Below the pieces are notes generated by a model that was not told the origin of the DNA, made no database searches, and worked only from the letters and a program-made list of their open reading frames with translations. DNA of 64,000 nucleotides from Leptolyngbya sp. NIES-3755 (GTDB lineage Bacteria; Cyanobacteriota; Cyanobacteriia; Leptolyngbyales; Leptolyngbyaceae): contig AP017308.1 in NCBI GenBank assembly GCA_001548435.1, positions 2,427,030 to 2,491,029 of the forward strand. The letters are read 5' to 3'. The position numbers were made by a program, and so were the translations under genes. Of this stretch, positions 14,413-63,307 are shown in pieces (position 1 is the first letter of the stretch; every line of letters begins with the position of its first letter).

Positions 14413-14485
14413 AATTGAGACAAACTCGAAATCTTTTCGATCGTGCAGTAAACTACACTAAGTCGATCAATCAAGTGCGGTTTAG

Positions 14486-14947
14486 ATGCAAGCAAATTCC
14501 CAGGTTTGTACGGTCTTAGAACTTTCTGCCAAAGTAGAATACACGTTACTGGCGCTTCTAGAATTAGCCAGTCATCAGAATAAGCCTTACCCGCTGACCT
14601 CTGCTGCGATTAACGAGAAGCATCACATTCCAGAGCGGTATCTTGAACAAATTTTGGCGATTTTGCGGCGGGGCGGTTTAGTTCGCAGTCTTCGCGGATC
14701 GAGAGGTGGTTTTGTTCTCGCACGTGAACCCCATGAAATCACATTATTGGAAATTATCACGCTGATGGACGGTGAGCGGAAGCAGCGGAGCTTGGAGAAT
14801 ACACCGACGATCGAGCGCGAAATTATTTACAAGGTTTGGGATGAAAACAATTTGCGATCGCAAGAATTTCTCGGCTCAATTACGCTCAGTAATCTCCGCC
14901 AGCAGAGAGATGCACGGATAGAATCGCATCCAATGTACTATATTTAA
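14486..14947 (+). CDS. Rrf2 family transcriptional regulator, cluster-less
   Basis: A 153-residue winged helix-turn-helix regulator of the Rrf2 family. The DNA-binding part (about residues 10-80) contains KVEYTLLALLELASH, HHIPERYLEQILAILRRGGL and the wing RSLRGSRGGFVLAREP. The only cysteine is C8, so the three-Cys [2Fe-2S] site of IscR/NsrR is absent. This resembles CymR, which senses sulfur status through partners rather than a cluster. It stands at the head of the sulfate-uptake genes on the same strand, making it the prime candidate for their regulator. No clear Shine-Dalgarno precedes the ATG. Confidence 0.85.
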   Translation: MQANSQVCTVLELSAKVEYTLLALLELASHQNKPYPLTSAAINEKHHIPERYLEQILAILRRGGLVRSLRGSRGGFVLAREPHEITLLEIITLMDGERKQRSLENTPTIEREIIYKVWDENNLRSQEFLGSITLSNLRQQRDARIESHPMYYI

Positions 14948-15066
14948 CACTTTTAATTCCAAAGGCTGGAAGACTACAAGAGTAGGCTGTTTGAGTGATT
15001 ATCAGGTTTTGAATCTTCCTTGGATTTCCGTATAAGCACGAGGCTCCTTTGTCTTTCTTTGAAAAG

Positions 15067-15140
15067 TACGGTAACTTTATCAAATTATCGCTCTCTGGCT
15101 GTTTTTCTGGTAATATACGGTAAGTTTATCGATTTATCGC
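15067..15140. promoter_or_regulatory. two 25-bp direct repeats, candidate operators
   Basis: The 25-base elements at 15067-15091 and 15116-15140 both read TACGGTAA, then TTTATC, then TTATCGC, with three mismatches in all and a 49-base start-to-start spacing. They lie in the spacer between the Rrf2 gene and the small membrane protein gene. The core TACGGTAA recurs at 17637-17644 upstream of sbpA. I infer binding sites for the Rrf2 protein or another sulfur regulator. Confidence 0.5.
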
Positions 15141-15147
15141 ATTACGC

Positions 15148-15573
15148 ATGAAAGAGTTGGAAACAGAGCAAGCTGCAACAGGGCGATGGATAGAGAGGGT
15201 GTCTCTTAAGAAAGTTCGCGGATGGCTATTATTCGCGATCGGGTGGTTGCTTTCGCCGCTGTGCTGGTGGAATGATTTGATCTTCAATCTGCCTGTCGCG
15301 TATGGATTTGGCTATCTGTGCAGCTTGTTCTCGCCTCAGTGGATCGTTCCGGGCACGATCGTAGGGTATTGGTTCTCGAACTTGATTGGGATTCTGCTGA
15401 TGCAGGCAGGCGCGATCGATGTGTTTCAGCCTCAAGAACGGAATCTTAAGAAAGAACTGTTCTGGGGTGTTGTTTCTTCTACCGTTTTTACGATCGCGAT
15501 CGTCCTACTCCTTCAATTCAAGATTCTTGATCTCCCAGTGCTTGATGCTTCTCTGCCGGTTGGAGGTCAATAG
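15148..15573 (+). CDS. small membrane protein in sulfur region
   Basis: A 141-residue protein with three or four hydrophobic segments (WLLFAIGWLLSPLCWW, VAYGFGYLCSLF, GYWFSNLIGILLMQAG and VFTIAIVLLLQF), preceded by a short charged N-terminus. I recognise no family. Its stop is three bases before the TauE/SafE start, so the two are almost certainly cotranscribed and possibly form a complex. Tandem TACGGTAA repeats lie directly upstream of its start codon. Confidence 0.72.
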   Translation: MKELETEQAATGRWIERVSLKKVRGWLLFAIGWLLSPLCWWNDLIFNLPVAYGFGYLCSLFSPQWIVPGTIVGYWFSNLIGILLMQAGAIDVFQPQERNLKKELFWGVVSSTVFTIAIVLLLQFKILDLPVLDASLPVGGQ

Positions 15574-15576
15574 AAG

Positions 15577-16377
15577 ATGGATGATTATGTACTGCTCTCA
15601 GCTCTGAGCTTTGTGGTTGGAATTGTGGTGGGATTAACTGGGATTGGCGGCGCATCATTGATTACACCGATATTAGTGTTTGTGTTTCAAGTGCCTGCTT
15701 CTGTCGCCGTTAGTTCTGATGTGGTGGCAGCAACTTTGATGAAGGTCGTGGGCGGTGTAAAACATTGGAGACAGCAAACGATCGATTGTTCAGTGGTGAA
15801 GTGGTTAGCTTTGGGCAGTGTTCCAGGTTCGCTGTGTGGTGTGACATTACTTCATCGATTGCGGAATATTGAAAGTGTGAATTTAGATGGCTTATTGTTG
15901 CATCTGATTGGATATGCAATTTTATTGGTGACAGTTACGGCTCTGGCGCAATTGTTAGTGATGTCGATCGCGCCTGAATGGAAATTGCCCTCGCCACCCA
16001 AGCTAGATTTGGGAACGGTTAGCGGTCGGGTTAGCTCGATCGTGATTGGTGCAGTTCTGGGTTTGATTGTGGGATTAACTAGCGTTTCTTCAGGGTCTAT
16101 GTTCGCGCTAGTACTGATCATTTTCTTTCAGCTTGATGCTCGAAAATTAGTTGGAACTGATTTAGCGCAGGCAGCACTTTTGTTAGTGTTTACGTCGATC
16201 GGGCATTTGACTTTAGGAACAGTGGACTGGAGTTTAGTGATTCCAATTTGGATTGGTTCTGTGCCGGGAGTATTGATCGGATCAAGAATTTGTAAGTTAA
16301 TTCCGCAACGTCCACTGAGGTTTAGTATCTATCTATTATTAGTGATGGTGAGTTGGAAGTTAGCACACACCGCTTAG
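15577..16377 (+). CDS. TauE/SafE family sulfite/organosulfonate permease
   Basis: A 266-residue membrane protein with about eight spans, made of two similar halves. The repeated family motif is seen as VVGIVVGLTGIGGASLITP near the N-terminus and LGLIVGLTSVSSGSMFALV in the second half. TauE/SafE proteins move sulfite, sulfoacetate or related sulfur anions, and the setting between an Rrf2 regulator and sulfate transporter genes supports a sulfur substrate. It starts three bases after the preceding stop. Two further family members lie at 21057 and, more distantly, 30317. Confidence 0.85.
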   Translation: MDDYVLLSALSFVVGIVVGLTGIGGASLITPILVFVFQVPASVAVSSDVVAATLMKVVGGVKHWRQQTIDCSVVKWLALGSVPGSLCGVTLLHRLRNIESVNLDGLLLHLIGYAILLVTVTALAQLLVMSIAPEWKLPSPPKLDLGTVSGRVSSIVIGAVLGLIVGLTSVSSGSMFALVLIIFFQLDARKLVGTDLAQAALLLVFTSIGHLTLGTVDWSLVIPIWIGSVPGVLIGSRICKLIPQRPLRFSIYLLLVMVSWKLAHTA

Positions 16378-16397
16378 GCTCGATCGCGAGGTAACTT

Positions 16398-16673
16398 ATG
16401 ACATTCAATCGATATCAACCTTTAAATCGCATTCGGCTACGCTTAGAAATTCCAGCTTCTTCGTACCAAGATCCGATTCTGTCTCGATTAGTGTCAGATT
16501 TTAAGCTAGTGGTGAACATTACAGCCGCACAACTGCATCAAACGCTTGAGAGTTATTGTGATGTTGAACTTCAAGGAACACCGCAGCAGATTAATCAAGG
16601 ATTGAGCTATCTTCGATCGATAAACGTTCGGTTGACGGGGAAGCCCAATGCCGCAGAAGATGATTGGTACTAA
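16398..16673 (+). CDS. NIL-domain protein
   Basis: A 91-residue protein consisting essentially of one NIL domain, the ACT-like ferredoxin fold found at the C-terminus of MetN methionine importer ATPases. Typical features are the opening RIRLRLEIPASSYQDPILSR, the strand-helix FKLVVNITAAQL and the closing YLRSINVRLTGK. By analogy it could bind methionine or another sulfur compound and report sulfur status; that is inference. Its stop overlaps the SPFH gene start (TAATG), so the two are translationally coupled. Confidence 0.8.
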   Translation: MTFNRYQPLNRIRLRLEIPASSYQDPILSRLVSDFKLVVNITAAQLHQTLESYCDVELQGTPQQINQGLSYLRSINVRLTGKPNAAEDDWY

Positions 16674-17533
16674 TGAAGTCTCAGATTAAATCTTTGAACG
16701 TGCCGAAAAAGAACAATCAAGATTCTCAAATTGCTTTTAATCTCATTTTGGTGTTGCTCTGTTTGGCGTTGCTGTCGAGCTTTTTTGCGATCGTCAATGC
16801 TGGAGAGCGCGGCGTTTTGATGCGATTCGGTGCAGTGCAAGAAACTGTTCTATCTGAAGGGATTCATCCGATCGTTCCGATTGTTTACACTGTTGAAAAG
16901 CTAAGTGTTCGCATCCAAAGTCAAGAAATCTCAGCAGAAGCATCCTCAAAAGATTTGCAAGATGTCTATGCGGATGTTGCTCTGAATTGGCACATTGTTC
17001 CTACAGAAGTTCATTTGCTCTATCAGGACATTGGTAATAAGCAAGCCGTGATTGAGCGAATTATTAGTCCTGCGGTCGAAGAAGTCCTTAAAGCAGTGAT
17101 GGCGAAGTATACAGCAGAAGCAATCATTACAGAGCGGGGAACTGTCAAAGCAGAAGTCGATCGAGCATTGACCGAACGATTACAGCCGTATCATATTGCA
17201 GTCGATGATTTGTCGTTAGTGCATATCAAATTTTCAGAACGATTTCGCGAAGCCGTTGAAGCGAAACAGGTTGCAGAACAACAGGCGAAACAAGCGGAAT
17301 TCGTCGCACTTAGAGCCGTTCGGGAGGCTGAAGCGATCGCGAATCGAGCCAGAGGAGAAGCTACAGCACAACAACTTCTACGCGACAGTTTGACTCCTGA
17401 ATTGTTACAGCGCCAAGCGATCGACAAGTGGAATGGAAATTTACCCTTTATTGTCGGTGGCGAAGGAACAAAGTTACTAGATTTAAAGCACTTAATTGAA
17501 ACGAGCCAGCGTGTGAGCCTCTCAACGCCTTAG
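16673..17533 (+). CDS. SPFH/prohibitin-like membrane protein
   Basis: A 286-residue protein with one N-terminal membrane span (ILVLLCLALLSSFFAIV) followed by an SPFH/band-7 domain starting GERGVLMRFGAVQETVLSEG and a long Ala/Glu/Gln coiled region (EAKQVAEQQAKQAEFVALRA). The C-terminus contains LPFIVGGEGTKLLDL. Such proteins form ring-shaped membrane scaffolds and often govern FtsH proteases. The start codon overlaps the NIL-domain stop by one base. Placement among sulfate-uptake genes suggests a job tied to that transporter's assembly or turnover, but this is inference. Confidence 0.87.
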   Translation: MKSQIKSLNVPKKNNQDSQIAFNLILVLLCLALLSSFFAIVNAGERGVLMRFGAVQETVLSEGIHPIVPIVYTVEKLSVRIQSQEISAEASSKDLQDVYADVALNWHIVPTEVHLLYQDIGNKQAVIERIISPAVEEVLKAVMAKYTAEAIITERGTVKAEVDRALTERLQPYHIAVDDLSLVHIKFSERFREAVEAKQVAEQQAKQAEFVALRAVREAEAIANRARGEATAQQLLRDSLTPELLQRQAIDKWNGNLPFIVGGEGTKLLDLKHLIETSQRVSLSTP

Positions 17534-17636
17534 TTTCAGTTCATGTTGTCTCGAAATACACATAATCCGAGCAAGAAATTGTGGTTTACCTATTGCGAAT
17601 TTCGATATTCCTCGATACGATATGGATCGATAAAAA

Positions 17637-17644
17637 TACGGTAA
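17637..17644. promoter_or_regulatory. TACGGTAA motif upstream of sbpA
   Basis: The eight-base core shared with the tandem elements at 15067 and 15116 occurs here, 37 bases before the sbpA start codon, in an A/T-rich stretch (CGATAAAAA) that could be promoter sequence. A single 8-mer match is weak alone; it is notable for its position. Confidence 0.35.
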
Positions 17645-17680
17645 TTCAAGCGACAAGCCGTAGGATGTAAGGAGAACGCA

Positions 17681-18826
17681 ATGAAGTTTTGGCGCTACGA
17701 TGCTTTGGAGTCAGTTGTCCGAGCATTTCAATCCATATTAAATCCCAGATCAGCTAGGAAATTTTTGTCCCTGTTTGTGATTGGAGCGACACTGAGTTTA
17801 ACGATCGCAGCCTGTAGCAGTGGTGACAACGCTTCAACGCCCACCGCTGGAGGAGGAGCCAGCCCAGTTGCCAATCAAGCCAAAGATGTGGAATTAACGC
17901 TCGTCGGTTATGCCATTCCGAAAGCGGCTCATGATGCGATCATTCCCAAGTTCGTTGAGCAGTGGAAGAGAGAGAAGGGTCAAAACGTTACCTTCAAGCA
18001 AAGCTACGGCGGCTCTGGATCTCAAACTCGTGCGATCATTGATGGATTAGAAGCGGATGTGGCTCACCTTGCACTGGCAGCCGACACTGGAAAACTGGTA
18101 AAAGCTGGGCTGGTAAATGCAGACTGGGATACGAAAACCCCCAACAATGGAACAGTTGCGAAAACCGTTGCCGCGATCGTCGTTCGTCCAGGTAATCCCA
18201 AAAATATTAGAACCTTTGAAGATCTGACTCGCGATGATGTGAAATGGGTCACGGCTGATCCAAAGACTTCTGGTGGCGCACGTTGGAACTATCTTGTTTT
18301 GTGGAATGATGCGCTCAGACGCAACAATAACGACGAAGCAAAAGCTAAAGAATTTGTGGCTAGAGCTTACAGAAATGTTGCAGTTCTCGCCAAAGATGCT
18401 CGTGAATCGACTGATGCGTTTTCTAAACAAGGTCAGGGTGATGCACTGATTAACTATGAAAACGAAGTGATCTTGGCACAGCAGAAAGGCGAAAAGCTGG
18501 AGTATGTTGTTCCACAGACGAATATTTCGATCGATACTCCAGTTTCGCTGATTGATAAGAACGTCGATCGACACGGAACTCGCGAAGTTGCAGAAGCGTT
18601 TGTGAAGTTCTTGTTCACGCCAGAAGCGCAGGCGGAATTTCTCAAACTGGGCTTCCGTCCTTTAGATGAAGCTGCCGCATCTGCAAACAAAGCGGTCGTT
18701 GAGAAGCTACCTCCGGTGAAGACATTGGCATCGATCAAAGATTTCGGTGGCTGGGACGAAGTGCAGAAGAAATTCTTTGAAGATGGTGGCGTGTTTGATC
18801 AAACATTAGCGGCTGCAAAACAGTAG
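17681..18826 (+). CDS. sbpA: sulfate-binding lipoprotein of ABC transporter
   Basis: The 381-residue periplasmic substrate-binding component of the sulfate/thiosulfate importer. An N-terminal hydrophobic stretch ends in a lipobox (SLTIAAC), so it is probably a lipoprotein anchored after cleavage; the segment before it is unusually long, about 45 residues. Family blocks include FKQSYGGSGSQTRAI, DVAHLALAAD, DPKTSGGARWNYL and YENEVILAQQKGE, which form the anion pocket. AAGGAG lies six bases before the ATG. A strong hairpin sits between this gene and cysT. Confidence 0.94.
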   Translation: MKFWRYDALESVVRAFQSILNPRSARKFLSLFVIGATLSLTIAACSSGDNASTPTAGGGASPVANQAKDVELTLVGYAIPKAAHDAIIPKFVEQWKREKGQNVTFKQSYGGSGSQTRAIIDGLEADVAHLALAADTGKLVKAGLVNADWDTKTPNNGTVAKTVAAIVVRPGNPKNIRTFEDLTRDDVKWVTADPKTSGGARWNYLVLWNDALRRNNNDEAKAKEFVARAYRNVAVLAKDARESTDAFSKQGQGDALINYENEVILAQQKGEKLEYVVPQTNISIDTPVSLIDKNVDRHGTREVAEAFVKFLFTPEAQAEFLKLGFRPLDEAAASANKAVVEKLPPVKTLASIKDFGGWDEVQKKFFEDGGVFDQTLAAAKQ

Positions 18827-18837
18827 GTTAGATTGAG

Positions 18838-18872
18838 CCGCGATCGAGAAATGAAGCTCGATCGTGGTTTTT
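18838..18872 (+). terminator. hairpin between sbpA and cysT
   Basis: CCGCGATCGAG (18838-18848) pairs with CTCGATCGTGG (18857-18867) with one G-U pair, an eight-base loop and a following TTTTT. It looks like an intrinsic terminator. It probably lets sbpA be made in excess over the permeases, with partial read-through into cysT. Confidence 0.7.
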
Positions 18873-18891
18873 CATTTGGGAGCAATGAACA

Positions 18892-19782
18892 ATGGTGACG
18901 GCTAGTTCTACGGAATCAGAGAAAGTTTCGGTTGGGAAAATGTTTGTGAGGTCGATCACGCAAGCGCCTTGGACTTGGCGAATTATGCTGACGTATCTCA
19001 CGATTATGCTGTTTATCCCTGTGATTGCGATGTTGTTAAAGGCATCGACCGTGGGATTTGCGCGATTTTGGCAGATTGCGACAAGCCCGATCGCGCTTGC
19101 AACGTATGACATTACGTTTACGACTTCATTAGTTGCTGCTTTGATCAATGGTGTGTTTGGAACTTTGATTGCTTGGGTGCTGGTTCGCTATGACTTTCCC
19201 CTAAAGCGATTCATTGATGCTTCGGTTGATTTACCATTTGCACTACCAACAGCGGTCGCAGGTCTGACCCTTGCAACGGTTTACAGTGAAAACGGTTGGA
19301 TTGGTTCGCTGCTTGCACCCTTTGGAATTAAAGTTGCCTTTACTCGATTGGGTGTTGGAATTGCGATGATTTTCATCTCGTTGCCATTTGTAATTCGGAC
19401 CGTTCAACCTGTGTTAGCTGAGATGGAAAAAGAAATCGAGGAAGCGGCTTGGAGCTTGGGCGCATCAGAGTGGCAAACGTTTCGATATGTGATTTTACCG
19501 CCATTGTTGCCAGCGATTTTGACTGGAGTAGCATTAGGATTTTCGCGGGCAGTCGGTGAATATGGCTCAACGGTGATTATTGCTTCAAATACACCGTTTA
19601 GAGATTTGATTGCTCCTGTACTGATTTTTCAACGCTTGGAACAGTATGACTATGCAGGCGCGACTGTGATTGGAGTTGTATTGTTAGGAATTTCTCTTGT
19701 GATGCTGTTGGGCTTGAACCTGTTGCAAGCTTGGGGTAGACGCTACGACACCAGTTCATCAACTCGACGAGTAGGACATTAA
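18892..19782 (+). CDS. cysT: sulfate ABC transporter permease CysT
   Basis: A 296-residue inner-membrane permease, one half of the CysT/CysW channel. It has about six or seven spans and the cytoplasmic EAA loop [20 protein letters not shown], which contacts the ATPase. Other family segments are [19 protein letters not shown] and [16 protein letters not shown]. It is followed four bases later by cysW. The first 25 residues are polar. A second start choice is not evident. Confidence 0.93.
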
Positions 19783-19786
19783 AATT

Positions 19787-20629
19787 ATGGCAATGATCGC
19801 TTCTCCCTCTCAAGACGGTAAAAAGGTTGCATGGGTTCCGATCGTATTAATTACAATCTCGATCGCGTTTCTTGCACTGATCATTTACATTCCTGCCATC
19901 AATGTCTTTTACCAGGCATTTAGAAAAGGAATCGGTCCGTTTCTGGCAAACACACGACAGCCGAATTTTTTGGTCGCGGTGAGATTAACGATCGCACTTG
20001 CCGCAATCTCGGTTCCACTTAATACTATTTTTGGATTATGTGCAGCATTGGCACTGTCACGGAAACAGTTTCGGGGACGAACTCTACTTCTGAGTTTGAT
20101 TGATTTACCGTTTGCAATTTCGCCTGTGGTCGCGGGTTTGATGCTCGTGCTCTTATACGGTCGTAATGGTTGGTTCGGTCCATTGCTAGAAGGAACTGAT
20201 GTCAGAATTATCTTTGCATTCCCAGGGATGGTACTAGCAACCATGTTTGTCAGCTTGCCTTTTGTGGCGCGAGAAGTGATTCCAGTGTTGGATGAGATTG
20301 GTCCAGAGCAGGAAGAAGCCGCGAGCACATTAGGCGCAAATGCTTGGCAAACTTTCTGGCGAGTGACATTGCCGAGTATTCGGTGGGGATTGCTCTACGG
20401 ATTGATTCTAACGAATGCGAGAGCAATGGGTGAATTCGGTGCGGTTTCGGTTGTATCGGGTAATGTGGCTGGAAAAACTCAGAGTTTGCCGCTGTTTGTG
20501 GAAGAAGAGTACAAACAATATGCGACTGAATCAGCTTATTCGGCTGCGGTGTTGTTGGCACTTTTAGCGGTTGTGACGCTGGTGGTTAAGCAGATCATGG
20601 AACGTAAAACTCGGATTAGTGATGAGTGA
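19787..20629 (+). CDS. cysW: sulfate ABC transporter permease CysW
   Basis: A 280-residue permease paired with CysT. Spans begin after about 15 residues. Family blocks are DLPFAISPVVAGLMLVLLYG, the EAA loop EEAASTLGANAWQTFWRVTL and NARAMGEFGAVSVVSG. It starts four bases after the cysT stop. In most cyanobacterial clusters cysA follows cysW. Here the next genes are on the opposite strand and encode DUF1634 and TauE proteins, so the ATPase must be supplied from elsewhere. Confidence 0.93.
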   Translation: MAMIASPSQDGKKVAWVPIVLITISIAFLALIIYIPAINVFYQAFRKGIGPFLANTRQPNFLVAVRLTIALAAISVPLNTIFGLCAALALSRKQFRGRTLLLSLIDLPFAISPVVAGLMLVLLYGRNGWFGPLLEGTDVRIIFAFPGMVLATMFVSLPFVAREVIPVLDEIGPEQEEAASTLGANAWQTFWRVTLPSIRWGLLYGLILTNARAMGEFGAVSVVSGNVAGKTQSLPLFVEEEYKQYATESAYSAAVLLALLAVVTLVVKQIMERKTRISDE

Positions 20630-20630
20630 A

Positions 20631-21056
20631 TCAGAGGTACGCACCAATAAAGCTATAAATCAAGCCAGAAAGCACGATCGCAGTAATCGCAGTGTAGGTA
20701 AAGTCACGCCAGCGAAGAAACGAGATAAATGAAACAATCACTCGCACGATCGGGGTTGCAATCAAAATCAGCAATCCAAACTGAATGATGCCGCGACGAT
20801 GACCTGTGAGCATTGCAGTGATGATTCCTGTGGGCGATCGATAAAGTGCAGGTTCGCCCCGAAACACTCGATAATCCACAGGTTCGTTTCCATGACGCAT
20901 CAGATAGAGGATGCCTCCGATCAGCACAATCATGCTGGATAGCCAAACTCCGTATGTTAGTAGATTGCGAATGGATTGTTCTAATTGAGCTTCGTGGGAG
21001 GGAACAATCGGCTGAGGCTCGATCGCGGAAGTTCTAGATTCTGCTTCTTGATACAT
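20631..21056 (-). CDS. DUF1634 membrane protein
   Basis: A 141-residue protein with three hydrophobic segments (YGVWLSSMIVLIGGILYLM, IIQFGLLILIATPIVRVIVS and YTAITAIVLSGLIYSFIG). It belongs to DUF1634, a family commonly encoded next to TauE/SafE permeases. The function is unproven; a partner subunit is the usual inference. It starts one base after the stop of the upstream TauE gene, so the pair is one transcriptional unit. It is convergent with cysW. Confidence 0.82.
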   Translation of the reverse strand: MYQEAESRTSAIEPQPIVPSHEAQLEQSIRNLLTYGVWLSSMIVLIGGILYLMRHGNEPVDYRVFRGEPALYRSPTGIITAMLTGHRRGIIQFGLLILIATPIVRVIVSFISFLRWRDFTYTAITAIVLSGLIYSFIGAYL

Positions 21057-21893
21057 CTACATTGCTCCCACGAGGCTGTTATAAACCATTTTAAGCGCCA
21101 TCACGACGAGAACTAAGCTAAATAAAATTCGTAACAGTTGAGTTTTCGCGCCGATTAAAACTTTTGCTCCAAGTAATGCACCTGGAAACACTCCAAGCAT
21201 CACAGGCATCGATAGTCCTGGATCAATGTAACCTCGTGCAAGATAGACTCCCGCAGAAGCCGCAGCAGTAACACCGATCATAAAATTGCTCGTTGTGGTC
21301 GAAACTTTGAATGGGAGTTTCATGGCTTGATCCATTGCTAAGACTTTGAATCCACCTGATCCAATTCCTAACAATCCAGACAATGCACCCGCCAGCACCA
21401 TAATGCTAAATCCGGTTGAAACAGAATGAGCCTCATACGCGATCGCACCATTCGGAGTTGGACAAGATCCATTTAGATGCAATTGTGCTGCTAATGGATC
21501 GCCTGGTTCTGTATCGCAAAACTCCGATCGCGGTTGTTGAGCTAGATAAGCGGAATACAACAAGGTCATCGCAAGAACGATCGCTAACATTTTCACCGAT
21601 ACAAACGTCGCAATCAGCGCACCAATCAAAGCCCCGATCACCGTTGCAACTTCGAGAAACATTCCAATTCGGAGATTGGCAAATCCTTGTTTAATGTAAG
21701 TGGATGCGGCTCCTGAAGAAGTGGCAATCACAGAAACTAGAGAAGCCCCGATCGCATATCGAATATCAATCCCAAACACTGAAGTCAGCAGCGGTACGAG
21801 AACGACACCCCCACCCAATCCAGTCAGTGCTCCCAAGAAGCCTGCAACGAATGATCCAAACCAAACTAACAGCGAAAACTCTAGGATATTCAA
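21057..21893 (-). CDS. TauE/SafE family permease
   Basis: A 278-residue permease with about eight spans and the two family repeats, FVAGFLGALTGLGGGVVLVP and LSGLLGIGSGGFKVLAMDQA. It is paired with DUF1634 directly downstream. A soluble-looking loop of about 40 residues (with CDTEPGDPLAAQLHLNGSC) separates the halves and holds two cysteines. The likely cargo is a sulfur anion such as sulfite, judged from the family and the neighbouring sulfate genes. It belongs to a minus-strand group continuing from the PAP2 gene 16 bases upstream. Confidence 0.87.
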   Translation of the reverse strand: MNILEFSLLVWFGSFVAGFLGALTGLGGGVVLVPLLTSVFGIDIRYAIGASLVSVIATSSGAASTYIKQGFANLRIGMFLEVATVIGALIGALIATFVSVKMLAIVLAMTLLYSAYLAQQPRSEFCDTEPGDPLAAQLHLNGSCPTPNGAIAYEAHSVSTGFSIMVLAGALSGLLGIGSGGFKVLAMDQAMKLPFKVSTTTSNFMIGVTAAASAGVYLARGYIDPGLSMPVMLGVFPGALLGAKVLIGAKTQLLRILFSLVLVVMALKMVYNSLVGAM

Positions 21894-21909
21894 GATAAAG
21901 CCTGTCCTT

Positions 21910-22620
21910 CTAATGCGAAGTGGATTGTAGTTCGTCAGGTAACAGCGCGGTTTCTTGGGACGATTGCAGATCAGGACGGATGACTAAGCTTACTCCAATT
22001 GCCCAAGATAAGGAAATCAGCCAACCTGCTAAGATATCGCTCGGATAATGAACACCCAGATACAGACGAGTCCAAGCGATCGATAAAACAAAAATGCTGC
22101 CGATCGTGCTCGTCCACTGATACCAGCGAGTTCCCCAAGTCAAAATTACTAAAGCTGCAACCAGTGACATACTCGACATGGCATGACCACTCGGAAATGA
22201 GAAGTCAGTATGCGGTGTGAGCGAATCCCAAAATGCAGGTCGATCGCGATGCAACCAAACTTTAGCAGTCCGATTGATCAAAGCACTTCCTAGCAGCGTC
22301 ACTAATAAGTAAGTGAGCGATCGCCATTTTTGCTGATAGAGCAATCCAATCGAAATCACGGTTGTAACGGGAAAAACGCCATAGAACACACCCAAGGGCG
22401 TAATCGTCGTGGCAATGCGATCGAGAATCGGCTGAGCCGTTCCATGAATTGCCAGCAGAATTGTCCGATCCCAAGCAAAAGTTCCTTGATGTTGAATGAT
22501 GACAGTGAACTGTTCTACAACAATTAGCGGCAGTACAACACCCAGGAATAATAGGAGTAATGTCTGCCACCGAGCCTCTAGAAGTTGCCGAAAAAATCGT
22601 AGGAATGCTTTTGTCATCAT
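21910..22620 (-). CDS. PAP2 family phosphatase
   Basis: A 236-residue membrane phosphatase with about six spans. The three catalytic motifs of PAP2/type 2 phosphatidic acid phosphatases are intact: KVWLHRDRP (KX6RP), FPSGHAMS (PSGH) and TRLYLGVHYPSD (RX5HX3D). It would dephosphorylate lipid phosphates or undecaprenyl diphosphate at the membrane. It lies 37 bases after the secreted-protein gene and 16 bases before the TauE gene, on the same strand. No sulfur link is evident beyond position. Confidence 0.9.
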   Translation of the reverse strand: MMTKAFLRFFRQLLEARWQTLLLLFLGVVLPLIVVEQFTVIIQHQGTFAWDRTILLAIHGTAQPILDRIATTITPLGVFYGVFPVTTVISIGLLYQQKWRSLTYLLVTLLGSALINRTAKVWLHRDRPAFWDSLTPHTDFSFPSGHAMSSMSLVAALVILTWGTRWYQWTSTIGSIFVLSIAWTRLYLGVHYPSDILAGWLISLSWAIGVSLVIRPDLQSSQETALLPDELQSTSH

Positions 22621-22657
22621 TCAATCACCAGAGCGATCAAGAGTTCTAAAGACTTAT

Positions 22658-23266
22658 CTAATCTTCGATTGGAGCATTTGGAGCCGTGGTTTCAACACTA
22701 GCTAAAGTTAGATTCGGAATCGGTAAAGCAGTTTCAGCCGATGCGGTGAGTGTCTTTGCAGGGGGCACATTTAATTCAATCTCACCGTTTGCATTCGTTG
22801 TCGCAACTAACTGAGTTCCGCTGATGAATTGAAGCGCGATCGGTTCGGTTCGCTCTGGTTGTCCGGCGAGTTTTGCACCTGTGGGTAAGTAGATGCCATC
22901 ACAGTTCCAATCATCACTGGTCGTCTCTCCGGTTGCTAGATAGTATAAGCTACTCGGTAACGCCGTTTTCTTCGCTTTGTGGGCATAGATCGCGATCGTC
23001 TTTCCGGTTTCATTGCTGCACTGCGACCATTCAGAAGCCGTTTCTAAAATGTACTTCTCTAAATTCAGCACCCCAAGCTTTTGTTCGATTTCGACTGGAC
23101 TGAGTTCTGAAGCGTCGGGATCAGACTTCGCATTGAGTAAATCCGCGATCGCAGTGGTCACTTCAGCATATTCTGGCAAGGTCGTGAACTTGGGCGGATC
23201 GGCGAGAACTGGAAATGCGATCGTAAACTGAAGCAACATGACGAATGCAATTAAAAATCGTTTCAT
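22658..23266 (-). CDS. exported protein of unknown function
   Basis: A 202-residue protein with a clear Sec signal peptide (MKRFLIAFVMLLQFTIAFPV, probable cleavage after VLA-D). The mature part is about 180 residues with two cysteines (SQCSNE and WNCDG) that could form a disulfide, and a beta-rich C-terminus. It has no membrane segment. I recognise no family. Its start ATG overlaps the stop region of the CadD-like gene by one base, so the two are coupled in a minus-strand operon. Confidence 0.72.
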   Translation of the reverse strand: MKRFLIAFVMLLQFTIAFPVLADPPKFTTLPEYAEVTTAIADLLNAKSDPDASELSPVEIEQKLGVLNLEKYILETASEWSQCSNETGKTIAIYAHKAKKTALPSSLYYLATGETTSDDWNCDGIYLPTGAKLAGQPERTEPIALQFISGTQLVATTNANGEIELNVPPAKTLTASAETALPIPNLTLASVETTAPNAPIED

Positions 23267-23985
23267 TAGGGTTCTCCTTGATTCATCGTTTCTGAGAGTC
23301 GAACAGTACGCATCAGATGGATTAAGCCCATTCCACTAATCACTAGGGCAATCACCGCTAAACCGCGATCTTCGAGCGTATGGCTATCTATCAAAATTAA
23401 TGTTCCTAATCCAATCAGCACAAAGGGAACAAGTTGATTACCATACCGGGTTAATGTTTCTGCGATCGCGGGAACTCGGCTAAATTGATAGGCGGCATAG
23501 CACCACACACCGACCATTGAGAAGAACGTCGTCACAATCACAATCAAACTGTCCCAGGTAGCACTGGCGAACAATGGCACATAGATTCCAATGTTATCGC
23601 CTCCATTTGCAAAGGTCACGGCTGCCACACTATAAGTTTGTGGAGACATTAGACCAGAAAACCAGTGTTGCTGAGACTGTTCATGCGATTGTTCTTCTTC
23701 CTCATCGTCAGCATCAGGATTGAGTAATCGAGCAACCCCGATCGCGATTGGAACAAGACCGAGCAATCCAATCCAAGGACGAGGTAACAATGCGTTTCCG
23801 AAGAAGCTGGGTAAAGTCGCAAAGACTAGCGCCCCGAATCCGAGATACTGTCCAGCAATGATGTGTTTGCGTCGAAATAGAACAGTCACTTGAGAGAAAA
23901 ACAACATCAGAATCACAATGTCGTCTAAGTTCGTCGCAATGAAAGCCGTGATTCCAGTTGTAAGAGCTTTGAGCAATTCAGTCAT
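23266..23985 (-). CDS. CadD-like cadmium resistance/transport family protein
   Basis: A 239-residue membrane protein and paralogue of the protein at 12567-13190. It shares TAFIATNLDDIVILMLFFSQ near the N-terminus and VTFANGGDNIGIYVPLFASA in the second half, separated by an acidic cytosolic loop (DADDEEEEQSHEQSQQHW) that includes histidines and could bind metal. Its ATG overlaps the APC permease stop (ATGA), and its own stop touches the next start, so it is in the middle of a tightly packed operon. The substrate is not proven to be cadmium. Confidence 0.85.
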   Translation of the reverse strand: MTELLKALTTGITAFIATNLDDIVILMLFFSQVTVLFRRKHIIAGQYLGFGALVFATLPSFFGNALLPRPWIGLLGLVPIAIGVARLLNPDADDEEEEQSHEQSQQHWFSGLMSPQTYSVAAVTFANGGDNIGIYVPLFASATWDSLIVIVTTFFSMVGVWCYAAYQFSRVPAIAETLTRYGNQLVPFVLIGLGTLILIDSHTLEDRGLAVIALVISGMGLIHLMRTVRLSETMNQGEP

Positions 23986-25439
23986 GATTCATCTTTTTGG
24001 TTCGCGTGATGGGCATGGATGGCTTCAATCGATCGCTGCATTTGTCGAACTAATCTGGGCGATCGACATCGCTGAAACACAAACCAGCCAAATCCAGCCG
24101 CAATGTACAGAGCAAACAAGTAAGGGAAAACGTTCGTGGGTGCTTCAGGAGCAAGGAATAAATCACTACCCGGAATCCCGATCGTGCCAATCAAAGGCAG
24201 CGCCATAAATCCAACCCCTAAGATTGAAAACAGAACGTTCATCGGGCGGAGTTCACCTAATCGATGTAAGTACACCGGAGCTGCGATCGAGATTAAGATG
24301 TACACGAGCAAAAAGCCGTAAGTACAAATCGTGCCAAAGTAACCTTGACTATCAAACGGCGACACTCCACATAGAACGATCGCAGTCGGGAGCACAAAGG
24401 TTAGGAGCGACGAAAGCGCGATCGCAGTATGCGGTGTTAAATTCTCTTCGTGTGAAGCTCCGAGCGAAGTATGAAACACACCATGTCGCGCCATGAGAAA
24501 CATTACTCGTGCAGTCGGATTAATGCAGCCTAGCGTACAAGTGAAGAAGCTCAACAATGCACCTAAGCTAATGATGATCCCCAGAAAATCCGCGCCTGTT
24601 TGATGTGCCAGAAAGTCTAATGGAGCTTCAGTTTTGGCGAGATCGGTCGATGCACCTTGGAAGCCTAGCACTTCGACGTAAGCCATGAAGATAAAGAACA
24701 CTCCAGCTAAAATCGTACTTTGCATCACTGATTTCGGAATTGACTTTAGCGGATCTTTGGCTTCATCACCGAGCGAAGTTGAACTCTCAAAGCCTGAGAA
24801 TCCGAAGACGACTAGGACAATTCCAGCAGTGATCCCGCCTGGAGTTGCGTTTTGCAGCGTCAATTGTGCGGGGTCGATCGCAAACTCATGATGTCCCCAA
24901 ATTAGAATACCGAGCAGCAGAATTGAAGCGATCGAGGCTCCTTCTAGCAGCAACATCAGTTTGGCAGACAGTTGAATATCTTTGTAAGCTGCATACCAAG
25001 CCGCCGCCACTCCAACCGCAAACAGAGTCAAGATGTGCGTATGAATTCCAACATAGCCAAGCAGTTTCTGACCAAAGATTGCAAAGCCGCACAGCGTAGA
25101 CATTCCTGTGAACAAATATGCCAGAATCAATCCCCAACCGCTTAACACGCCTGCGGTCGGACCTAACCCTTTCACAATATATGAATAGAGCGATCCCGGT
25201 GAGGCAGAGCGTCGAGCAAACTGATTGATATTGATCCCGACAAACACCAGTCCGATCATGCCGAGTAGAAAACTGAGCCAAGTGCCATTCCCTGACGACG
25301 CAAAAATCAAGCCCATGACCGCCGCTGGAACCGTCGTTGGAGCGAGAACGGCAAACGATTGAGCTAATACTTCACCGTAGGAAAGACATTCCCGTTTTAA
25401 GCCATGCACACTGGGAGAAATGGGTATTTCAGCGGTCAT
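23982..25439 (-). CDS. APC superfamily amino acid/amine permease
   Basis: A 485-residue transporter with about 12 membrane spans in the amino acid-polyamine-organocation superfamily. Visible family features are the first helix with VPAAVMGLIFASSGNG, the GSLYSYIVKGLGPTAGVLSG loop and VVFGFSGFESSTSLGDEAKD in the middle. The substrate is not readable; an amino acid is likely, and a sulfur amino acid would fit the neighbourhood. It heads the minus-strand group with the CadD-like and secreted-protein genes and overlaps the next gene by four bases. Confidence 0.88.
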   Translation of the reverse strand: MTAEIPISPSVHGLKRECLSYGEVLAQSFAVLAPTTVPAAVMGLIFASSGNGTWLSFLLGMIGLVFVGININQFARRSASPGSLYSYIVKGLGPTAGVLSGWGLILAYLFTGMSTLCGFAIFGQKLLGYVGIHTHILTLFAVGVAAAWYAAYKDIQLSAKLMLLLEGASIASILLLGILIWGHHEFAIDPAQLTLQNATPGGITAGIVLVVFGFSGFESSTSLGDEAKDPLKSIPKSVMQSTILAGVFFIFMAYVEVLGFQGASTDLAKTEAPLDFLAHQTGADFLGIIISLGALLSFFTCTLGCINPTARVMFLMARHGVFHTSLGASHEENLTPHTAIALSSLLTFVLPTAIVLCGVSPFDSQGYFGTICTYGFLLVYILISIAAPVYLHRLGELRPMNVLFSILGVGFMALPLIGTIGIPGSDLFLAPEAPTNVFPYLFALYIAAGFGWFVFQRCRSPRLVRQMQRSIEAIHAHHANQKDES

Positions 25440-62389: not shown

Positions 62390-62491
62390 TCTCCGGAACA
62401 AATTTATTCTTTGTTGTAGTTGCTCGACAAGAGGAGTGTAAGGATTTACTGGGTACGCTAATTTATCCAACTCAACCAAGGACAAACCTGT

Positions 62492-63307
62492 ATGCAAGCT
62501 TCCTTGAATCGTCGATCGATGATTCCGATGTTCATTGCATTTGCCCTACTCGGATTCGGTGGACTAATCACCTTACTGCGCTCCGTGACTGTGATCCAAA
62601 CTGGAGAAATTGGCATTGTTGATCTCTATGGTCAAGTTTCTGATCAACCGCTAACCCCTGGTATTCACCTGAAAAATCCAATGGCTCGAAAGACCACGTT
62701 TTCAACCCAAATTCGGGAAGTCAAGGAAACACTAGAGACACCGACCAAGGATGGTTTAATGCTCACGGTGGATGTGAGTGTTCTCTATCGCATTGATCCA
62801 AGCAAAGCAAAACAGCTTTATCAAACCGTTGGGACGAACTATGAGGAAGTGATTTTAGTGCCTCAAATCCGATCGATGATTCGGGCTGCAACTGCAACCT
62901 ATCAGTTCAACACGATTTACACGAGCGATCGCGAAAAACTGGCTCAACAGCTTCGGGACAATTTGAACAAAACCTTGAACGATCGCGGCATCATCATTGA
63001 AGAAACGCCGCTGCGGAGTGTCACGCTTCCCGACAGCATTAACCAATCGGTGCAAGAACGGCTCAAAGCTGAACAAGAAAGTCAGCGGATGAAATTTGTG
63101 CTGGAGAAAGAGCGACAAGAAGCCGATCGTAAACGCATCGAAGCTCAAGGAAATGCAGATGCTCAGAAGATTCTGGCGCAAGGACTAACGGATCAAACTC
63201 TGCGATTCAAGCAAATTGAAGCCATGCAAGAATTAGCAAAATCCCAGAATTCCAAAGTGATTGTAATGAATGGCAATCAGAATGCACCTGTGATGTTGCA
63301 ACCGTAG
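62492..63307 (+). CDS. SPFH/prohibitin-like membrane protein
   Basis: A 271-residue prohibitin-family protein. An N-terminal span (IPMFIAFALLGFGGLITLL) is followed by the SPFH domain (VIQTGEIGIVDLYGQVSDQP, LTVDVSVLYRIDPSKAKQLY) and a coiled region (RLKAEQESQRMKFVLEKERQ). The C-terminus is KVIVMNGNQNAPVMLQP. It is a paralogue of the SPFH protein at 16673, but more like canonical prohibitin. It begins about 100 bases after the dehydratase gene and ends before a hairpin shared with a convergent gene. Confidence 0.9.
   Translation: MQASLNRRSMIPMFIAFALLGFGGLITLLRSVTVIQTGEIGIVDLYGQVSDQPLTPGIHLKNPMARKTTFSTQIREVKETLETPTKDGLMLTVDVSVLYRIDPSKAKQLYQTVGTNYEEVILVPQIRSMIRAATATYQFNTIYTSDREKLAQQLRDNLNKTLNDRGIIIEETPLRSVTLPDSINQSVQERLKAEQESQRMKFVLEKERQEADRKRIEAQGNADAQKILAQGLTDQTLRFKQIEAMQELAKSQNSKVIVMNGNQNAPVMLQP

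Follow-up and report, generated by a model that had tools for sequence, protein, structure and literature searches.

Overlap of a stand-alone NIL gene with a prohibitin-type SPFH gene beside a relocated sulfate operon in Leptolyngbya sp. NIES-3755

NIL and SPFH compared with described systems

The described system closest to the stand-alone NIL protein studied here is the C2 (NIL) domain of the methionine importer ATPase MetN (PDB 3dhx and 3dhw). In E. coli MetN, the N295A exchange removed L-Met binding at the C2 domain and raised the inhibition constant 28-fold (PMC12357092). In Synechocystis, the sulfate operon is induced by sulfur starvation (PMC2491639). In the literature searched, no paper on stand-alone NIL proteins was found. 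SPFH proteins of the type considered here resemble the prohibitins (SPFH4; human PHB1/PHB2 and Synechocystis Slr1106), and for prohibitin-type bacterial members the SPFH domain was proposed to face the periplasm (PMC2636767). Slr1768 of Synechocystis, implicated in thylakoid maintenance (PMC3100299), also belongs to the cyanobacterial prohibitin family; the neighbors named for it there differ from those of our SPFH gene.

The window, that is, the whole 64,000-nucleotide stretch of Leptolyngbya sp. NIES-3755 DNA analyzed here, contains the following features around the NIL and SPFH genes.

14486..14947, plus strand: Rrf2-family regulator (CymR/IscR-like; Pfam/NCBIfam), found beside cysA in three same-genus genomes
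15148..15573, plus strand: M141, an uncharacterized small membrane protein of 141 aa, the steadiest genomic partner of SPFH
15577..16377, plus strand: TSUP1, TauE/SafE family (sulfite exporter-like; Pfam), directly upstream of NIL
16398..16673, plus strand: NIL, a stand-alone NIL-domain protein of 91 aa (Pfam NIL PF09383, MetN C2 regulatory fold)
16671..16675, plus strand: TAATG junction, with one base common to the NIL stop and the SPFH start
16673..17533, plus strand: SPFH/Band 7 protein of prohibitin type, 286 aa (Pfam Band_7 PF01145)
17572..20626, plus strand: relocated block (DNA comparison) of the sbpA upstream region, sbpA, cysT and cysW
17681..18826, plus strand: sbpA, sulfate-binding protein (NCBIfam TIGR00971)
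18892..19782, plus strand: cysT, sulfate permease (NCBIfam TIGR02139)
19787..20629, plus strand: cysW, sulfate permease (NCBIfam TIGR02140)
20631..25439, minus strand: DUF1634, TSUP2, PAP2, a 202-aa unknown protein, a CadD-family protein and an amino acid permease

NIL is a member of its Pfam family (50.7 bits against PF09383, gathering cut-off 24) and consists of this domain only, its 91 aa lacking the ABC ATPase domain of a MetN importer ATPase. Its predicted structure (pLDDT 80.7) adopts the MetN C2 fold, beta-alpha-beta-beta-alpha-beta, and the best PDB match of the model in Foldseek was the MetN C2 domain 3dhx (probability 1.00, TM 0.73, rmsd 1.7). A profile of 40 NIL proteins likewise finds MetN chains, and its match to 3dhw places N40 of the window protein, conserved in at least 90% of the 40, on MetN N295. 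The equivalent of Asn295 also occurs in a NIL-ferredoxin protein and is hence not specific, so that the conserved asparagine may have a structural role. NIL and MetN C2 thus share the fold, the aligned asparagine and a genetic association with an ABC importer that takes up a sulfur compound, but NIL is a separate protein without the ATPase domain, is associated with a sulfate rather than a methionine transporter, and shares only about 25% identity with MetN C2.

SPFH scored 125.6 bits against PF01145 (cut-off 23.6), and its best solved relatives are prohibitins 1 and 2 (PHB1, E 1.5e-31). With its Band_7 domain, a single N-terminal membrane helix (hydrophobic stretch at about residues 22-42), a positively charged tail and prohibitins as closest relatives, it is of the SPFH4 prohibitin type, with which it has the N-terminal membrane helix, SPFH domain and helical tail in common. 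The single helix and charged tail fit the periplasmic orientation proposed for such bacterial proteins (PMC2636767). It differs from the described prohibitins in being accompanied by five further Band 7 proteins in the genome (six in all) and in its sporadic occurrence, and it is about 40% identical to a commoner cyanobacterial paralog group. The FtsH modulators HflK and HflC are related (NCBIfam matches with E 1e-9 to 1e-12). Assignment to HflK/HflC was rejected, with scores of 47.9 against a cut-off of 134.4 and 35.8 against 159.4 (NCBIfam), and SPFH here is not part of an hflKC pair. Another of the six Band 7 proteins is a second SPFH protein encoded in the window at 62462-63304.

The NIL stop codon TAA occupies 16671-16673 and the SPFH start codon ATG 16673-16675, with the SPFH stop at 17533, which is exactly the one-base TAATG overlap described in an earlier, sequence-only reading of this DNA. 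That reading also placed the pair just before sbpA, correctly, with 147 bp between the end of SPFH and sbpA-cysT-cysW. The same-strand run M141-TSUP1-NIL-SPFH has gaps of 3, 20 and -1 bp, and in this genome the NIL and SPFH proteins may, as that reading held, be produced jointly. No strong Shine-Dalgarno sequence was seen in the window before the ATG at 16673. The SPFH start differs in relatives, in which the frame appears to open at a TTG just downstream, where the window has ATT; by this comparison, the ATG of TAATG appears to be new in this genome and the SPFH start not to be conserved.

Linkage of NIL, SPFH and sulfate genes among cyanobacteria

Positions of SPFH orthologs, NIL and CysT were recorded in a sample of 194 cyanobacterial genomes. 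SPFH orthologs, with E at most about 1e-65 and clearly apart from paralogs near 40% identity, were present in 31 of them; NIL was counted in 51 genomes, the weakest matches being excluded, and CysT in 65. A second sample comprised 80 named SPFH loci from another collection, which contains some of the same assemblies (L227 is G213). The linkage counts below ignore phylogeny, and contigs ending near a gene lower them.

All 51 genomes of the counted NIL set possess cysT, and in 38 of these NIL lies at most 3 kb from it, always on the same strand (25 downstream of cysT/cysW and 13 upstream of cysT). As a family, NIL belongs with the sulfate-uptake genes. NIL and SPFH were found within 3 kb of each other in a single one of the 27 genomes having both, namely, that of the window, and within 6 kb in 5/80 named loci, direct adjacency being observed in 0/80. 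On these counts, together with CadD lying between the two genes in relatives, a conserved NIL-SPFH operon was rejected.

The sequence-only reading had taken the pair to be a module that is translated together, senses sulfur and controls how the membrane transporter is assembled or turned over. The one-base overlap within a same-strand run is consistent with this, as are the tie of NIL to sulfate genes and the looser one of SPFH (cysT within about 45 kb in 7/30 genomes, sbpA within 6 kb in 9/80 loci). Adjacency in 1/27 genomes and 0/80 loci, the separation of NIL from SPFH by a CadD gene on the other strand in three same-genus genomes, and the new SPFH start codon in the window argue against it. 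Moreover, the two proteins probably reside in different compartments, with NIL in the cytoplasm and the SPFH domain in the periplasm (PMC2636767); because NIL is soluble, direct contact would be unlikely if the SPFH domain is indeed periplasmic. We regard a co-translated module as very improbable, and this one-genome story of a sensor-scaffold pair should not be pursued as a general module. What stands of the earlier interpretation is the link to sulfur genes in other genomes for NIL by itself; it does not extend to a conserved pair.

The loose link between SPFH and sulfate genes is real. For the seven of 30 genomes with cysT within about 45 kb, the binomial p is about 3e-7 (indicative only, assuming uniform positions and independent genomes); SPFH and cysT were within 10 kb of each other in 3/30 genomes. 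In Calothrix NIES-4101 and Scytonematopsis, for example, sbpA directly precedes SPFH on the same strand. SPFH might be a sulfur-linked prohibitin that, without any involvement of NIL, supports the membrane transporters TSUP1, TSUP2 and CysTW. Apart from the cysT linkage, recurrent sulfur-type neighbors in the 80 named loci agree with such a role (TSUP1 in 8, TSUP2 in 16, sbpA in 9, Rrf2 in 11, and ABC ATPases found with a CysA query in 13). However, the commoner neighbors, M141 (36), CadD (30), the 202-aa protein (26), LysR (21) and the APC permease (21), are not genes with a known sulfur role, SPFH is seldom closely linked to cysT, and some of the 13 ABC matches are not CysA, one of them (L301) being MetN-like. 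We consider this role rather unlikely.

M141, for which no Pfam or NCBIfam match was obtained, was present in 29/31 genomes with SPFH, versus 8/163 others, and in 17 of them within 3.5 kb of SPFH. CadD, the APC permease, the 202-aa protein, PAP2, TSUP2, DUF1634 and LysR recur around SPFH as well. We read SPFH as a prohibitin-type membrane scaffold paralog within a cluster made up of M141, TSUP, DUF1634, CadD, APC permease and PAP2 genes; it would probably form an oligomeric ring that organizes or protects membrane proteins, and is not a partner dedicated to NIL. The co-occurrence of a prohibitin paralog with an uncharacterized small membrane protein inside a conserved transporter cluster is a feature of interest in itself. 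Among the 17 nearby loci, M141 is often immediately beside SPFH in convergent orientation, and the cluster of DUF1634, TSUP2, PAP2, 202-aa protein, CadD and APC permease around SPFH is conserved in cyanobacteria (window 20631-25439 and loci L199-L203).

Origin of the junction and of the proximity to sbpA

The genus of the window is represented by eight genomes in the set. In three of the four same-genus genomes with a NIL-SPFH region (G210, G212 and G213), the order is NIL, opposite-strand CadD, SPFH. The separation by an opposite-strand gene makes a single NIL-SPFH transcript unlikely in these CadD-bearing relatives. Only the window and G211 have no intervening gene between NIL and SPFH in this genus, and G211, in which CadD is lost, retains before SPFH a segment with TTGTATATTAACGGAA. 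Elements like TTGTATATTAACGGAA, with at most two changes, were found upstream of SPFH in 5/5 relatives having this SPFH, and none was found upstream of SPFH in the window. CadD and SPFH diverge from the stretch that holds the element, so it could serve either. Because relatives carry CadD or the conserved upstream element at this position, the NIL-SPFH overlap is best read as the scar of a recent, lineage-specific deletion.

DNA comparison with G211 showed the window segments 14438-16679, 16674-17502 and 20638 onward to be collinear and in the same order, whereas 17572-20626 matches elsewhere in the relatives in which it could be placed: in G211 at a distance of 3.2 Mb, and in G212, G213 and G216 on different contigs. 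In the window, the segment with CadD and the element is removed from between collinear blocks, and 17572-20626 is inserted. The genes at 20631-25439, from DUF1634 to the amino acid permease, are directly downstream of SPFH in relatives without the relocated block. At the sites of sbpA in relatives, about 110 bp upstream of the gene are conserved, so sbpA probably came with its own promoter. In this genome alone, sbpA-cysT-cysW has thus moved beside NIL and SPFH together with its upstream DNA, making the proximity of SPFH to sbpA accidental; the order SPFH-sbpA that had been taken as meaningful is specific to this genome. Overall, we think it probable that the junction is a deletion scar joining a sulfate-linked, putatively regulatory NIL gene to an unrelated prohibitin-type SPFH gene, beside which the sulfate operon was relocated.

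NIL subfamilies and a possible role in sulfate uptake

The window NIL represents a diverged, less common subfamily, in which the GWFDL motif is replaced by SYCDV. The NIL tree suggests one large set linked to cysTW, a group of double-NIL proteins near Rrf2/cysA, and the window set near cysA/Rrf2/TSUP1; with too few columns for the deep forks, these are weak, and firm support is confined to a same-genus group of four. Members of the window subfamily adjoin Rrf2, M141-TSUP1 or cysA (L182, L183, L184, L186, L199-L201, L206 and L207), and in G211, G212 and G213 the same-genus orthologs have cysA at a distance of 2-3 kb. The ABC gene beside Rrf2 in G211 and L206 is CysA according to NCBIfam. The adjacency of the window copy to sulfate genes arose by relocation. 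NIL genes also occur between sbpA and cysT in genomes of family f6 such as G143 and G014, a position that is likewise occupied by a gene in Synechocystis PCC 6803; the window NIL, in contrast, is of another subfamily and lies upstream of sbpA. A second NIL gene in the genome (L002) is of the cysTW-linked type, and the window copy could have a role different from that of cysTW-linked NIL proteins. The cysA gene of the window's genome lies far from the window (G000:C1:4710070-4711098, L309), and its ortholog in G211, G212 and G213 adjoins Rrf2-M141-TSUP1-NIL.

Given the neighbors of its subfamily, NIL might have Rrf2 or TSUP1 as its partner instead of the sulfate ABC transporter, sensing a sulfur metabolite in the control of transcription or sulfite export. 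The larger NIL family, however, tracks cysT/cysW rather than TSUP1 or Rrf2, and MetN already offers a case of an ABC transporter under NIL control; we therefore consider an action through Rrf2 or TSUP1 unlikely. Instead, we favor NIL as a member of a stand-alone family accompanying the sulfate ABC transporter, either cysTW-linked or together with cysA and an Rrf2 regulator. Because it folds like MetN C2 and retains a counterpart of Asn295, we propose that NIL would bind methionine, cysteine or a similar sulfur metabolite and regulate sulfate uptake in trans, most likely via CysA, in the manner of a detached MetN trans-inhibition domain. In general terms, by analogy with MetN, stand-alone NIL proteins might be dissociable CysA-inhibiting subunits that bind a reduced-sulfur metabolite and exert protein-level feedback on sulfate uptake, a possibility that we put forward tentatively. 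That cyanobacterial sulfate transporters are accompanied by a conserved separate NIL protein is the part of these results worth following. In relatives, CysA carries a TOBE domain but lacks a NIL domain. A candidate CysA-NIL fusion of 384 aa (L301), considered as direct support for an action on CysA, was rejected as MetN-like (362 bits against TIGR02314, versus 211 against the sulfate model).

Several further NIL architectures were observed. Proteins of ~220-250 aa with two NIL domains are encoded near Rrf2/ABC ATPase genes (L183:7706-8359, L185:14441-15190, L186:5038-5685 and L187:7025-7702). L001 (G000:C1:4540373) is the NIL-ferredoxin protein, with NIL and two 4Fe-4S motifs in a 157-aa frame, and weak matches in frames near 140-150 aa occur in most sampled NIL-bearing genomes. 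In Argonema antarcticum (L272:1470-4364), a single sulfate operon carries a NIL gene after cysW and another, of 206 aa, between sbpA and cysT; SPFH is divergent beside sbpA at this locus.
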